Positions 26,360 to 30,944 of a stretch of 64,000 bases of DNA are shown in pieces. A program made the translations under genes and the position numbers. The DNA comes from Kiloniellaceae bacterium (lineage in GTDB: Bacteria; Pseudomonadota; Alphaproteobacteria; Kiloniellales; J153). The notes below the pieces were generated by a model. That model did no database searches. It was given only the letters and a program-made list of their open reading frames with translations, and was not told the origin of the DNA. The stretch lies in contig JAJFGN010000039.1 in the NCBI GenBank assembly GCA_021776115.1, positions 62,001 to 126,000 on the forward strand, written 5' to 3'. Numbering within the stretch: the stretch's first letter is position 1; each line of letters opens with the position of its first letter.

Positions 26360-26514
26360 CCGCCTGAAGCGGCCTAGCCTGCATTTCCGAGGGTTTTGAG
26401 CCGCCTTTGGCGTTGAAGCGGCCGGTTTCGTGGGCCATCTTGACCTTGTACCGCCCGATTCGCGGCACCCGGCGATGCCACGCCTGGTTTCCATGAGAGG
26501 CCATGAGAGGATTG

Positions 26515-26928
26515 ATGGCGCATCTGCACGATATTGGGCGATTCACGACGCCACCGGATTTGTCCGATATGGAGGCCTATGCGCGCGAGGCCTTCGCCAC
26601 GATTCCGGACGAGCTGCGTCAATACCTCGACGAGGTTATCGTTCAGGTCCAGGACTTCCCCGACGACGAAACCCTTGAGGAAATGGACTGCGAGTCGCCC
26701 TTCGACCTGCTCGGCCTCTACCGGGGGGTGGCCATGGCGTATAAGAGCGCACAGGACAATCCCGAGGATATCGACACGGTCTATCTGTATCGGCGGGCCA
26801 TCCTCGATTACTGGTGCGAGACCGGCGAGGATCTTGTCGATGTCGTGCGCCATGTCTTGATCCACGAGATCGGCCATCATCTCGGCTTGTCCGACGAGGA
26901 CATGGAGCGCATCGAGGCAGAAGCCTAG
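26515..26928 (+). CDS. Zincin-like metallopeptidase family protein
   Basis: 137 residues. HVLIHEIGHHLGLSDEDM contains the HExxHxxG zinc motif of the minimal zincin family (DUF1025/metallopeptidase family), and FDLLGLYRGVAM and VYLYRRAILDYW are family-typical. Small cytosolic protein, proteolytic activity unproven. Two ATGs (26503 and 26515) are possible; a tandem CCATGAGAGG at 26491-26510 supplies a ribosome site best placed for 26515. Confidence 0.88.
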   Translation: MAHLHDIGRFTTPPDLSDMEAYAREAFATIPDELRQYLDEVIVQVQDFPDDETLEEMDCESPFDLLGLYRGVAMAYKSAQDNPEDIDTVYLYRRAILDYWCETGEDLVDVVRHVLIHEIGHHLGLSDEDMERIEAEA

Positions 26929-26966: not shown

Positions 26967-28613
26967 TCAATCTTCCCGGGCAACGAAATCGAGAGATTGG
27001 CGGGCCGTGCGCAAGCCGAAGCGGCGCTTGACCGGTGTCTCCAGGAAGCGCCTGACCCCGGCCAGGACATCGCCGCACCCGGGAGCGGCCGGCGCGGCCA
27101 GGACCTCCTCGCGCGCGGCCATAAAGGTTTTCAGTTGGTGCGCGGCGACGATGTATTCGAACTGCCCGTGATCGAAGAGGCGGGCGGCGGTGGCCTCGAA
27201 GAAGACCGCCGGGTCCTCGACCCGCCAAGGGCTCGTGTCCAGATCCTTATCGACATAGGCCGCGTTGCGCCCGGCGAAGCAGGCCATCTGCAACAAACCT
27301 TGCGGCCAGAGAGCCGGGGTGCGGGTACACAGATGGCGGACGGCGTTGGCAAAGGTGATGCCGTGGGTGAAGTCGAGCCAGCCGACATTGTCGGAGACCG
27401 GTGCGTCGTTGCGCGCCTCGACCGCCCGGTCGAAATGTAAGAGGTTCCACCCGGCCGCCCCGAGGAGGGCGCCGTATAACCCCAGGGGATCGCCGGCGAA
27501 ATCGAGGCAGCGCTCCAGCGCCGCGCGCACGCCGAGGCCGATGAAGTCGGCTGGCGTGGGAGTTTGCTCATTCTTATTTGAACCTGCCGCTTCCGGCCAG
27601 GCGCGAAGGACCCGCGCGTAGTCCTTGAATTCGGGGATCAGGTCTTCGCGCGTCGCATAAATCTGGGCGCGGACCAGCGCAAGGAGTAAGGGTTCCGTAA
27701 CCCCAGGCCCCAGATGATCGATCGCTTGGCCGGTCTTCAGGGTATAGATCGCGGAATGGCCGAAATTGGCGTAGTGCGACAACGCGGCACCGGCCAAAGT
27801 CCCTTCAAGCTCCCGATAACTCAAGCCCTCGGCCAGGGCGCCGCGCGCCTGCGCGCAGGCCGCGGCTTCGTCCTCCGCCTCGATGGCCGCGGCCAGGGCC
27901 TCTGGATCGTAGGTCGCGACGCCCTGCGGGTAAGGATACGGTGGCCGACGCAGCGTATCCCAGGCCATGTGCCCCGCGACCTCAACCAGCGGTGCAAGAG
28001 AAAGAACCGGATCGCTACCGGCCCTCGAGGCGCGCAAGGTGAGCCAATCCGCCCCGGCGGCGTAAGCATGCGTGGTCCCGAATTCGAGCCGGTCGTGCGT
28101 CCAGCCAATCGCGGCGCGCAGGGCGTCCAGAGGATCGCGTCCGGCGCGCGTCAAACGAGCGATCTCGCGCGCCATGCGGTCGACCTCGTGATCGGGAAAC
28201 GACTCGGCCAAGGCTTTTAGCGCCGCTTCGGCCCGCTCTGCCGCCGGCGGATCGCTGAGATCCAGCCACACCTTGCCTTCCGTCACCCGCACCGGATAAC
28301 GGCGCAGGCGGTCGCCGCCAACCAGGGTTTCGCCGCTATCCAGATCGAATTTCCAATTGTGCCAGTTGCAGGTTAGGAGACAGGCGCCCGCGCCATCCTG
28401 GGTCAAGACGCCCTCGCTCAGGGGGTAACCTTCGTGCGGGCAGCGGTTATTGCAGGCATAGACATCCCCATCGTTATGGAACAGCGCGATCTGCTTGCCC
28501 CCCTGTTTGACGACCAGGCGCCCGCGTTCGCGTAAGCGCGCCAAGTCCGCGACCGGAACGTAGGAATCCTGGGCCGCCGCATCCGTCGCCGGTGACGCTT
28601 CTTTGGACCTCAT
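26967..28613 (-). CDS. Rieske domain protein fused to a His-rich helical domain (questin-oxidase-like?)
   Basis: 548 residues. Residues 17-120 form a Rieske domain with CPH (Cys58, His60) and CNWH (Cys82, His85) ligands for a [2Fe-2S] cluster. The remaining 420 residues are helical and His-rich: WTHDRLEFGTTHAYAAG, EVAGHMAW, LSHYANFGHSAIYTLK, LLHFDRAVEARND, LDFTHGITFANAVRH and FEYIVAAHQLKT. Spaced His residues of this kind recall questin-oxidase-type proteins, but that is a resemblance, not an identification. It is probably an oxygenase that carries its own electron-transfer domain. It is divergent from a SufR-like iron-sulfur regulator. Confidence 0.7.
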   Translation of the reverse strand: MRSKEASPATDAAAQDSYVPVADLARLRERGRLVVKQGGKQIALFHNDGDVYACNNRCPHEGYPLSEGVLTQDGAGACLLTCNWHNWKFDLDSGETLVGGDRLRRYPVRVTEGKVWLDLSDPPAAERAEAALKALAESFPDHEVDRMAREIARLTRAGRDPLDALRAAIGWTHDRLEFGTTHAYAAGADWLTLRASRAGSDPVLSLAPLVEVAGHMAWDTLRRPPYPYPQGVATYDPEALAAAIEAEDEAAACAQARGALAEGLSYRELEGTLAGAALSHYANFGHSAIYTLKTGQAIDHLGPGVTEPLLLALVRAQIYATREDLIPEFKDYARVLRAWPEAAGSNKNEQTPTPADFIGLGVRAALERCLDFAGDPLGLYGALLGAAGWNLLHFDRAVEARNDAPVSDNVGWLDFTHGITFANAVRHLCTRTPALWPQGLLQMACFAGRNAAYVDKDLDTSPWRVEDPAVFFEATAARLFDHGQFEYIVAAHQLKTFMAAREEVLAAPAAPGCGDVLAGVRRFLETPVKRRFGLRTARQSLDFVARED

Positions 28614-28654
28614 GCTGCCCTCACACTTACTAAAGGATCTCCTATCGAAAAGAT

Positions 28655-28695
28655 AACGCCAGGGCGTTTGTTTTTAAAGCAGATTCTTTATAAAG
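28655..28695. promoter_or_regulatory. Dyad symmetries between Rieske gene and SufR-like regulator
   Basis: In the 121-base divergent spacer, AACGCC-AG-GGCGTT (28655-28668) is a perfect dyad and CTTTATAAAG (28686-28695) a 10-bp palindrome that could overlap a -10 element. Either could be the operator of the adjacent iron-sulfur HTH regulator. No binding data; purely positional inference. Confidence 0.3.
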
Positions 28696-28734
28696 TCCGT
28701 GCCGGCAAAAGTATTTGGGGCGGGCGGTTATCCG

Positions 28735-29394
28735 ATGGCCAAGGCGACCAAGATCCCAGAATCCGGCACCACGCGCCGGGGCTTGCTCGACTGCTTGAAA
28801 CGCGGCGGCGCGCAAGAGGCGGGTGCGCTTGCCCAGCACCTCGGCGTCACCGCCATGGCGGTGCGTCAGCATCTCTATGCCCTGGAGGCGGAAGGCATCG
28901 TGGCGGCGACGCAAGAACCGCGCCCGCTCGGCCGCCCGGTCAAGCTCTGGGCCCTGACCGCAAGCGCCGAACCCTTTTTCCCGGACGGCCACGCGGAGCT
29001 GACGCTGGGCCTGCTCGACGCCATGGGCACGGCGTTTGGGGCGAAAGGCTTGGACAAGCTTCTGGCCGCCCGCACGAAAGCCCAAGGCCAAGCTTACGCC
29101 GCGCGACTCACGCGGCACAAAACCTTGAAGCGCCGTTTGCAAGCCTTGGCGGACATTCGTTCCGAAGAAGGCTATATGGCCGAGGTGCGCGCCACCGGAC
29201 GCGGGCAATATCTCTTGCTCGAAAACCACTGCCCGATCTGTGCCGCCGCACAGGCTTGCCGGGGTCTATGCCGGAGCGAGTTGGATCTCTTCCGTGAGGT
29301 TCTCGGTCCGGGCGTGGATATCGAAAGAGTAGATCATATCCTAACCGGCGCCCGGCGCTGCAGTTACCGCGTGCGGCGCGCCGAGAAAATTTAG
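28735..29394 (+). CDS. SufR-like HTH regulator with iron-sulfur cysteines
   Basis: 219 residues. The N-terminal DeoR/ArsR-type winged helix (AGALAQHLGVTAMAVRQHLYALEAEGIV, then GRPVKLWALT) is followed by a helical region and a cysteine set: HCPICAAAQACRGLC and GARRCSYRV. This is the arrangement in SufR, a repressor of iron-sulfur assembly genes that senses its own cluster. No suf genes are in the window; its divergent neighbour is a Rieske protein, so local control is likely. ATG 28735 is chosen; a GTG at 28699 would add 12 residues. Confidence 0.83.
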   Translation: MAKATKIPESGTTRRGLLDCLKRGGAQEAGALAQHLGVTAMAVRQHLYALEAEGIVAATQEPRPLGRPVKLWALTASAEPFFPDGHAELTLGLLDAMGTAFGAKGLDKLLAARTKAQGQAYAARLTRHKTLKRRLQALADIRSEEGYMAEVRATGRGQYLLLENHCPICAAAQACRGLCRSELDLFREVLGPGVDIERVDHILTGARRCSYRVRRAEKI

Positions 29395-29450
29395 ATATAC
29401 TCGTTACGGCCTCGGTTATCCCCGACGCCTTTGTGGAGGAGTTGCACGTC

Positions 29451-30944
29451 TTGAAACGCGAGAGCCCGAATATTCTTATATTCATGAGCGACAACCAGCC
29501 GGCTGAACTGCTCGGCTGCTATGGCAATGACGAAATCCATACCCCGCATCTCGACGGGCTGGCGGGCGCCGGAATTCGCTTCGACAACGCCTTTTGCGTG
29601 AACGCGATGTGTTCGCCCTGCCGGGCGTCGGTGCTAACCGGACTGATGCCCTCGCAGCATGGCATCCATACTTGGCTCGACGACGGGATCATGGATCGTT
29701 GGCCGGATAAATGGAACGCCATCGGCGAGTTCAAAAGTTTCCCCGCCGTCCTCAAGGAACACGGCTACCTAACCGCCTTGATCGGTAAATATCATTTGGG
29801 TATCCCGTTCGAGCCGCAGAACGGTTTCGACCACTGGGTCACCTTTCCGCACGGGCACACGCTCGATTTCTACAACAACACCGTCATCGAAGGTGACGAG
29901 AAGTACATCTTCGAAGGCCACAGCGTTGACTATTTCACCCAGAAGTCGGTCGAGTTCCTCGATGCCTACGACAGCAAGGCGGGGGCTCCTTTCTTTTTGT
30001 TCGTGCCCTACAACGGACCTTATGGTCACTGGCCGGCGGTTAAGGGGCCGGCGGAAAATAGGTTCGCGCATCTCTATGACGAGACCGAGATGCACTCGGT
30101 GCCGCGCGAGGGTTTGTGCAAGGAGACCATCGATCGCTTTTTGCGACGCCTGCACGAATACACCCGCGAAGCCGATTTCGCCTACCATCTGAGAATCCCG
30201 AACGATCTGGAAACTCTGCGTAACTATTTCTCGCAGATGAGCATGGTCGACGACGGCGTTGGGCGGATTCTAGAGGCGCTTCGCCGCAACGACCTAAGCG
30301 AAGATACGCTCGTCATCTACACGGCGGACCACGGCTACTCGCTCGGCCGCAACGGATTTTGGGGACACGGTCAATCGACTTGGCCGTCCAACATGCATCG
30401 CGCCGCTTTCCACATCCCACTCATTTTCGCGCGCGACCAACATATCGAAGCGTTTCAGGTTCGTGGCGAACTCACCAGCCAACTCGATCTCTTCGCGACG
30501 CTTCTCGATTACATCGGGCTCGACGCGGAGAACCTAAACGGCCAATCGGACTCGCGCAGCTTCGCGCCGTTACTTACAGGCAAACCCTGCACTTGGCGCG
30601 ACGCGGTCTTCATGGAACAGGAGGAGACGCGGGCTATCAGGACCGCGCAGTGGCTGTACATGATGCGCTTCAAGGGCAGCGCGGATCATCCACTGAAAGA
30701 CGAGATGTACGACCTGGCGAAGGACCCCAAGGAAAAAAACAACCTGGCGAGCGATCCAAGATACGCGGGAGTCGCTTCCGAGCTGTCGCAAAGGATCGCC
30801 GCATTTTTCGACGCGCATAGCGATCCACGTTACGATCTGTGGAAGGGCGGCACGGCCAAATCGAATTCCGACGCGCCGTGGCTGTGGAAAGAGGCCTGGG
30901 GCGAGCAATGGGAACCTAATTTCGGCGCAAGCCCTGGGGATTGA
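29451..30944 (+). CDS. Type I sulfatase (formylglycine-dependent)
   Basis: About 497 residues. NILIFMSDNQPAELLGCYG has the metal-binding Asp pair, and MCSPCRASVLTGLMPSQHG is the CxPxR site whose Cys is converted to formylglycine. GKYHLG, TADHGYSLGRNGFWGHG (metal ligands) and a C-terminal subdomain with EMYDLAKDPKEKNNLA follow. It hydrolyses sulfate esters, substrate unknown. There is no signal peptide, so a cytosolic role is likely. A GGAGGA at 29435-29440 points to TTG 29451; GTG 29433 is an in-frame alternative adding six residues. No formylglycine-generating gene is nearby. Confidence 0.9.
   Translation: MKRESPNILIFMSDNQPAELLGCYGNDEIHTPHLDGLAGAGIRFDNAFCVNAMCSPCRASVLTGLMPSQHGIHTWLDDGIMDRWPDKWNAIGEFKSFPAVLKEHGYLTALIGKYHLGIPFEPQNGFDHWVTFPHGHTLDFYNNTVIEGDEKYIFEGHSVDYFTQKSVEFLDAYDSKAGAPFFLFVPYNGPYGHWPAVKGPAENRFAHLYDETEMHSVPREGLCKETIDRFLRRLHEYTREADFAYHLRIPNDLETLRNYFSQMSMVDDGVGRILEALRRNDLSEDTLVIYTADHGYSLGRNGFWGHGQSTWPSNMHRAAFHIPLIFARDQHIEAFQVRGELTSQLDLFATLLDYIGLDAENLNGQSDSRSFAPLLTGKPCTWRDAVFMEQEETRAIRTAQWLYMMRFKGSADHPLKDEMYDLAKDPKEKNNLASDPRYAGVASELSQRIAAFFDAHSDPRYDLWKGGTAKSNSDAPWLWKEAWGEQWEPNFGASPGD

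Follow-up and report, generated by a model that had tools for sequence, protein, structure and literature searches.

What does a Rieske [2Fe-2S] domain do when it is joined in one chain to something other than the catalytic domain of a ring-hydroxylating oxygenase? This question is raised by a gene in the window (the whole stretch of 64,000 nucleotides analyzed here) that the initial annotation described as a Rieske domain followed by a His-rich helical region, possibly an oxygenase with its own electron input. The interval given for it, 26967-28613, is confirmed as exactly one ATG-to-stop frame, a single complete ORF of 548 codons, and the strand, which had not been given, is minus (Table 1). 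Pfam Rieske models score above their cut-offs and cover residues 17-117 only. The NirD model TIGR02378 matches this part at E 2.2e-17 with 63.1 bits, under its cut-off of 74.65 bits.

Table 1. Positions of the fusion gene, its domains and inferred site residues, the divergent regulator and the palindromes between them
Feature	Coordinates	Strand	Basis
Rieske / questin-oxidase-like fusion gene	26967..28613	-	548 aa; ORF and translation, relatives
Rieske [2Fe-2S] domain, residues 17-120	28254..28565	-	PF13806 E 2.7e-15, PF00355 E 1.4e-14; ligands C58, H60, C82, H85
All-helical questin-oxidase/BTG13-like domain (predicted), residues 124-548	26970..28244	-	AlphaFold2 pLDDT 95.6; VIA-align Z 15.5-18.6
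H182 codon, inferred ligand (corresponds to BTG13 H58 in order and spacing)	28068..28070	-	81/81; 7y3x = H58F
H280 codon, inferred ligand (corresponds to BTG13 H158 in order and spacing)	27774..27776	-	80/81; BTG13 AYHPLI motif
H286 codon, candidate fusion-specific residue	27756..27758	-	81/81; glycine at the motif-aligned BTG13 position
H417-G-I-T420 codons, HxxT motif (BTG13 H296/T299)	27354..27365	-	81/81 for both; 7y3y = T299V
H492-Q-L-K495 codons, HxxK motif (BTG13 H374/K377)	27129..27140	-	H492 81/81, K495 80/81 plus one gap
Putative operator palindrome 2	28627..28650		Matrix score 21.6, second in the window; 20.9 when trained without the window
Putative operator palindrome 1 (TTTnTAAAG-N6-CTTTAnAAA type)	28671..28694		Matrix score 28.9, highest in the window; 28.5 when trained without the window
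SufR-like HTH regulator, five Cys near the C-terminus	28699..29394	+	TIGR02702 E 3.9e-32; start GTG 28699 or, more likely, ATG 28735

A contig scan with six search peptides found 239 stretches of genome_contigs that encode a relative of the fusion protein; some of these may share only the Rieske domain, because one of the six peptides sits there. Conservation was assessed on sets drawn mainly from the best 80 of the 239. Near full-length matches (from residue 34 or earlier to residue 544 or later) in 78 of these best 80 indicate that the proposed architecture is more than chance, and the two shorter matches (L045 and L071) lie at contig ends. Even relatives at 36-38% identity are matched over about residues 17-547. 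The best 80 belong to Alphaproteobacteria, Gammaproteobacteria and unspecified Proteobacteria, together with one SAR324 and one Eisenbacteria MAG (L025, L070), and the nearest named relatives among them are Kiloniellaceae MAGs at 77-79%, on which basis the host is regarded as an alphaproteobacterium. Two kinds of alignment were used: those of 62 rows omit 19 of the 80 loci, and that of 81 rows comprises the window, two deep relatives (36-38% identity) and 78 of the 80 loci, L022 and L080 being excluded from its tree on account of broken frames. The Cys2His2 cluster ligands that the initial annotation had pointed out, C58-x-H60 and C82-x2-H85, are invariant in both (62 of 62 and 81 of 81 rows).

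The host genome has one copy of the fusion gene, near full-length matches occur in 5 of 398 genomes drawn from the host’s phylum (host counted), and the domain profile matches 3 of 299 genomes in a second, overlapping draw. Within the host’s class, the helical domain is present in 38 of 385 genomes; 37 of the 38 have an open frame of at least 525 aa, the length expected of the fusion, and in the remaining one (G540) the frame is interrupted by a TAG. No unfused copy of the helical domain was seen in these 38 genomes, although distant unfused copies could escape a profile made from fused proteins only. Plasmids gave no match to the fusion at E 1e-30.

Beyond the Rieske domain, the remaining 425 residues have no Pfam, NCBIfam or PDB-sequence match, either singly or as a 62-row profile. 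AlphaFold2 models are confident, with a mean pLDDT of 92.9 for the whole protein, and predict the domain to be all helical, which bears out the helical region suggested by the initial annotation. Scattered matches to other families, made by 1 to 11 of the 62 members with a best E of 4e-4, look chance-like, and two rows from an hmmsearch of the helical domain against PDB sequences were likewise judged to be chance. One explanation would be a classical Rieske ring-hydroxylating oxygenase whose catalytic domain has diverged very far; the N-terminal position of the Rieske domain is as in that family, and Rieske oxygenases are matched via the Rieske part. However, no Pfam catalytic-domain model matches any of the 62 members, and classical Rieske oxygenases have a catalytic domain of helix-grip alpha/beta fold, whereas the C-terminal part here is all helical. 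This explanation is hardly tenable, and the absence of a standard ring-hydroxylating catalytic domain, as first claimed, holds. Had any well-described Rieske enzyme family clearly matched, the initial annotation would have been overturned; the Pfam, NCBIfam and PDB-sequence searches gave no such match.

Structural comparison places the domain elsewhere. VIA-align, run on the candidate list of plain Foldseek, compared the model of the domain with PDB, and the top six rows are all of questin-oxidase type (7y3w, 7y3x, 7y3y, 8yxs, 8z4q and 8z4r), with Z from 18.6 to 15.5 over 326-334 aligned residues at only 9-12% identity. BTG13 (7y3w) and its mutants 7y3x (H58F) and 7y3y (T299V) gave Z 18.6 over 327-330 residues at 4.3-4.6 angstrom; AflY (8yxs) followed at 18.1 and the hydroquinone dioxygenase PaD (8z4q, 8z4r) at 15.8 and 15.5. 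The rows thereafter drop to Z 9.7 (98 residues), 9.6 and then 4.0. Using the whole-protein model, 8yxs (Z 18.3), 8z4q (15.8) and 8z4r (15.3) were matched again, and the Rieske part matched 2qpz with Z 17.0. As a baseline, the best Z was typically 14 for five mostly helical models that Foldseek did not clearly match; the questin-oxidase-type values lie above this, their alignments span more than three quarters of the domain, and a single family accounts for all of them. Plain Foldseek found nothing significant for the helical domain, either against PDB (best E 0.04, unrelated) or against a viral structure library. By sequence, the relation is faint: none of the 62 members matches PF14027 at E up to 1, and the hhalign match is weak (E 7e-4, probability 26.5%, 95 columns), with the HxxT and HxxK motifs in register. 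The loose likeness to questin oxidases noted at the outset is thus an apt description of the sequence and understates the resemblance in fold. Judged from predicted models, there is good support for assigning the helical domain to the fold shared by BTG13, AflY and PaD, which are non-heme iron enzymes.

The conserved residues of the domain point to the same family. Residues 120-548 contain 12 histidines, in keeping with the ‘at least ten’ counted earlier, and only five of them (182, 280, 286, 417 and 492) are invariant in all 62 rows. In the 81-row alignment, H182, H286, H417, T420 and H492 are present in every row, H280 in 80, and K495 in 80 with one gap. H482 (61 of 62 and 78 of 81 rows) and H215 vary in the larger alignment and for that reason were not accepted among the core ligands. 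In domain numbering, the fusion family carries H59, H157, H294, T297, H369 and K372, and the BTG13 sequence has H58, H158 (AYHPLI), H296 and T299 (FMHMVT), and H374 and K377 (DDGHLAK); the gaps between the four histidines and the lysine are 98, 137, 75 and 3 in the former and 100, 138, 78 and 3 in the latter. Among six bacterial PF14027-type proteins, two of which (L085 and L086) score under the Pfam cut-off, four histidines and a lysine are the only invariant His or Lys residues, with gaps of 90, 128, 68 and 3. The iron of BTG13 is held by four histidines and a carboxylated lysine. We infer that H182, H280, H417, H492 and K495 form a comparable metal site, an inference from order and spacing along the chain and not from their arrangement in space. 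The conserved pattern of the fusion comprises five histidines and a nearly invariant lysine; H286, the fifth, may be specific to Rieske-fused enzymes, since BTG13 has a glycine at the motif-aligned position. Invariant Glu residues are also present, and a carboxylate ligand is not excluded. Iron and oxygenase chemistry in the helical domain are probable on these grounds, with bound iron, carboxylation of the lysine and activity all being inferred.

Whether electrons from the Rieske domain enter that chemistry is a separate matter. To our knowledge, the characterized questin-oxidase-type relatives work without a Rieske partner, and external electrons may therefore not be needed. The fusion could be a BTG13-like dioxygenase requiring only Fe(II) and O2, with the Rieske domain outside turnover, where it might keep the iron ferrous, reduce a quinone substrate to the hydroquinone, or serve as a redox or oxygen sensor. 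BTG13 is titled a nonheme iron-dependent dioxygenase in the literature, the six aligned bacterial PF14027-type proteins have single-domain length, and the operator-linked SDR genes described below could supply hydroquinone instead. Against this, the Rieske ligands are retained in 81 of 81 rows, a conservation as strict as that of the inferred metal site, and the 38 positive genomes lack a visible unfused copy, within the limits of the profile. Strict ligand conservation and the lack of an unfused copy together point to an obligate role for the Rieske domain, and we consider one outside turnover unlikely. Electron transfer from the Rieske domain to the iron has the better prospects, although it is an inference and the distance between the two centers is not known. 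An oxygenase bearing its own electron input, as the initial annotation proposed, is supported as a reading, with the oxygenase activity and the electron transfer remaining inferences.

The neighborhood of the gene bears on its role. A SufR-like regulator is encoded divergently, 85 bp away from the fusion gene or 121 bp if its later ATG is the start. TIGR02702 scores 111.6 bits on it, under the equivalog cut-off of 178.8 bits, and at E up to 0.001 this model also matches in 12 of 14 control genomes. The window and 45 of the best 80 loci, 46 of 81 in all, have such a divergent upstream regulator (tblastn E up to 1e-6), and in 44 of the 46 it lies within 900 bp of the fusion gene. Five C-terminal Cys columns are kept in 41-42 of these 44 regulators, and the protein is presumably an iron-sulphur redox sensor, cluster binding and regulatory action being inferred. 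Of the 35 loci without the regulator, 32 have more than 500 bp of upstream sequence and three have less. On the 81-row tree, the SufR-like neighbor requires 11 changes, compared with 26.7 for shuffled labels; the tree was midpoint-rooted for drawing only, and we make no statement on the ancestral regulator. Across chosen genomes, the regulator occurs in 10 of 15 with the fusion versus 6 of 15 without it, and co-occurrence at this level is therefore weak.

The intergenic regions share a palindrome. An unbiased dyad count found AAAG-N6-CTTT in 22 of 44 intergenic regions, compared with a maximum of 3 in 20 shuffles. A 24-bp palindrome, TTTCTAAAG-N6-CTTTAGAAA, has 76 sites in 43 of the 44, usually two in each, whereas shuffled regions (50 shuffles) averaged 0.44 sites and never had more than 2. 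This pattern was shaped by eye on the same 44 sequences, and its enrichment is partly by construction; two loci with the regulator more than 900 bp away (L006 and L013) were omitted from training. In the 64-kb window, the third-best matrix score is 8.1, far below the two sites in Table 1. Where the regulator is present, 45 of 46 upstream regions score at least 12; where it is absent, 6 of 34 do, one of the six being a SoxR locus; the regulator-bearing group overlaps the training set, and one locus with less than 100 bp of upstream sequence was omitted from the scan. The two deep relatives, which lie outside the training set, have two sites each (25.3 and 15.9; 22.4 and 17.0), and each still has, as recognized by eye, a regulator of this type in divergent orientation. 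One of them (L125) has a further site, scoring 23.0 at position 93, which is unexplained. In Aestuariispira insulae (L013), two genes are inserted between regulator and fusion, and both promoters keep sites. Among 789,980 other positions in the fetched loci, only three reach a score of 20: the separated regulator promoter of L013 and two sites before an SDR gene in L063, where the SDR gene forms an apparent operon with the fusion and a cysteine-synthase-like gene (by eye) is divergent. The paired palindrome is a clear, falsifiable candidate operator for the regulator family, and no description of this family was found in the open-licence PMC literature searched. Taken jointly, we are highly confident of the fusion, its fold and its local regulation.

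In another group, a different sensor takes the place of the SufR-like protein. SoxR is the divergent neighbor in three loci, L066 and L068 of Gammaproteobacteria and L062 of Proteobacteria, which group together on the tree (100/90) among gammaproteobacterial rows. The first two proteins are complete, score 207.6 and 214.2 bits with TIGR01950, against a cut-off of 116.9, and have the CxxCxCx5C motif; in L062 only part of the gene lies within the 452 bp upstream. Counted against the SoxR box consensus, the fusion promoters of the three loci contain a box with 1, 4 and 4 mismatches and a 19-bp spacer, compared with a minimum of 6 mismatches in 4,000 shuffles and 8 in the next real locus. No reductase or ferredoxin is consistently adjacent to the fusion, as judged by eye from neighbor clusters of at least 10 loci or of at least three regulator-less loci. 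Several neighbors that follow the species were set aside, namely a Zincin_1 metallopeptidase and, by eye, a sirtuin-like deacetylase, a uracil-DNA-glycosylase-like protein, a low-molecular-weight phosphatase-like protein and a DMT transporter. An SDR-type cluster in 22 loci was set aside as well, because its distance and strand vary.

Do the regulator and its operator reach further genes? The sole exact match to the pattern in the host genome is palindrome 1 of the fusion intergenic region, its partner site having 3 mismatches; no second operator target was found in that genome, and four other sites with 3 mismatches are at control level. The regulator thus looks local in the host. Elsewhere, a related SDR gene (37% identical) in G584 (L120) has a site scoring 25.6 about 40 bp ahead of it, if an internal ATG is the start, and in G697 (L121) a site scoring 25.5 precedes an MFS multidrug-type exporter gene by 40 bp. 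These hint at a small regulon. They could be chance, because genome-wide counts at up to 3 mismatches do not exceed those of the reversed pattern (6 versus 6, 13 versus 16, 13 versus 27, 5 versus 12, 0 versus 2 and 12 versus 16 in six genomes), and G600 carries the fusion yet has no pattern match. In three of the six fusion-free genomes with a regulator homologue (L127, L128 and L130), the homologue is divergent to an MFS multidrug-type exporter gene. Two of these exporters share 38% and 29% identity with the G697 exporter, and palindrome scores at the three loci reach no more than 16.6, 15.1 and 11.2. The other three loci (L126, L129 and L132) have different neighbors or a contig end.

The likeness of the regulator to SufR also admits a role in iron-sulphur homeostasis, in which the neighbor would sense Fe-S status and the fusion would serve iron or cluster supply instead of small-molecule defense. 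SufR regulators control suf operons, going by titles cited in PMC9973013, a point in its favor. By eye, however, no suf or isc gene is among the recurrent neighbors listed, SoxR occupies the place of the regulator in another group, and the regulator homologue is divergent to an exporter gene in the three fusion-free genomes above, so that we judge homeostasis to be quite improbable. Defense against quinone-like compounds is the role we put forward instead, and only tentatively, at a little short of even chances. SoxR in E. coli answers redox-cycling drugs (PMC4146615). Questin-oxidase-type members act on anthraquinone and hydroquinone, as far as the titles of structures and papers tell. Two unrelated regulator families with cluster-type cysteines, the SDR and exporter genes of single genomes, and the substrates of the fold together point to oxidation of redox-active quinol-type compounds.

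We propose the following mechanism, each step of which is hypothetical. A separate NAD(P)H-ferredoxin reductase would pass electrons to the N-terminal Rieske domain, which in turn would deliver them to a mononuclear iron in the helical domain, held by H182, H280, H417, H492 and K495, the lysine being carboxylated by analogy with BTG13. The reduced site could then activate O2 and oxygenate or cleave a quinol- or polyphenol-type aromatic. An adjacent Cys-rich redox sensor may switch the gene: in many Alphaproteobacteria this would be a SufR-like protein acting on the paired palindromes, and in one small group of Gammaproteobacteria it would be SoxR. An SDR (NAD(P)-binding) or MFS exporter could stand behind the same type of operator in single genomes. 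The likely job would be defense against redox-active compounds. A Rieske-fed, single-chain non-heme iron oxygenase that is redox-induced and acts on quinol-type aromatics is the reading we favor by a modest degree of belief, its substrate class being inferred.

Descriptions of Rieske oxygenases usually give them a single catalytic fold. The fusion may therefore represent a second, independently evolved class, in which Rieske electrons power the activation of O2 by an iron bound to four His and a (carboxylated) Lys within a questin-oxidase fold, a reductase-free type of dioxygenase has become reductase-dependent, and SufR-like or SoxR control serves defense against redox-active quinones in Alpha- and Gammaproteobacteria; as a whole, this remains a possibility that we would not yet back. 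If true, the electron-feeding Rieske module would be re-usable on an unrelated iron-oxygenase fold. The fusion would then offer a direct test of what Rieske electrons add relative to stand-alone relatives, and the exchange of a SufR-like regulator for SoxR at the same gene makes its physiological role testable in culturable marine bacteria. The fusion was not found described in the open-licence PMC literature; both modules are known, and within the reach of the search neither their combination nor its regulation is.

Several known systems resemble parts of this arrangement. The SoxR regulon of Streptomyces coelicolor comprises a transporter, oxidoreductases, a monooxygenase, an epimerase/dehydratase and a quinone oxidoreductase (PMC4146615). 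This is a small redox-sensor mix similar to the neighbors of the fusion, which by comparison sits mostly beside a SufR-like regulator, contributes a Rieske fusion as the presumed oxygenase and has only single sites to suggest a regulon. MinC of minimycin biosynthesis is likewise a bacterial DUF4243 fusion, its partner being a HAD phosphatase and not a Rieske domain (PMC8724604). Rieske ferredoxins and NirD are close to the Rieske part; there the domain is a separate carrier, and here it is fused. The questin oxidase family PF14027 (formerly DUF4243; BTG13, AflY and PaD) has in common with the fusion its fold, the four spaced histidines and lysine, and the HxxT and HxxK motifs. The fusion differs from that family in its 9-12% identity, the absence of a Pfam match, the N-terminal Rieske domain, the additional invariant H286 and a bacterial redox-sensor neighborhood. 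Like Rieske non-heme iron oxygenases such as carbazole 1,9a-dioxygenase, it is a single chain in which a Rieske domain precedes a putative oxygenase domain with mononuclear iron; unlike them, it has a different catalytic fold, with ligands that are, by inference, four histidines and a lysine instead of two histidines and one carboxylate.

The operator is retained at the promoters of both the regulator and the fusion in one locus (L119, genome G584), despite two genes that are inserted between them. By eye, these were named as TetR-like and DNA-3-methyladenine-glycosylase-like. An operator-like site with a score of 23.0 also occurs at position 93 of the stretch carrying a deep relative of the fusion (L125), where it lies apart from the regulator-fusion pair.

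The genes flanking the pair in the window are listed in the table. Sulfatase-type genes of the same cluster as the window Sulfatase were observed close to the fusion in three other loci (L002, L012 and L025), and the Zincin-like metallopeptidase belongs to a cluster that 18 of 81 examined stretches contain, window included.

Genes flanking the regulator and the fusion in the window
Feature	Coordinates	Strand	Pfam match	E-value	Location
Sulfatase gene	29433-30944	+	PF00884	1.4e-50	adjoins regulator
Zincin-like metallopeptidase gene	26503-26928	+	PF06262	2.2e-35	downstream of fusion

Fusion copies with broken frames occur in loci L022 and L080 and on contig C72 of genome G540, perhaps reflecting assembly errors or decay.

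Bacterial matches to PF14027, the Pfam questin oxidase family, are rare (L082-L091). In one set of 142 genomes, 6 had a match with an E-value of 0.001 or below, and in another set of 299 genomes, 3 did. The family cut-off was exceeded by three of these 6 and two of these 3, and some of the weak matches look spurious.

SufR-like regulator homologues also occur divergent to MFS multidrug-type exporters (L127, L128 and L130), in genomes where a domain search did not find the fusion. It is possible that these homologues represent a wider family of redox- or drug-sensing regulators.
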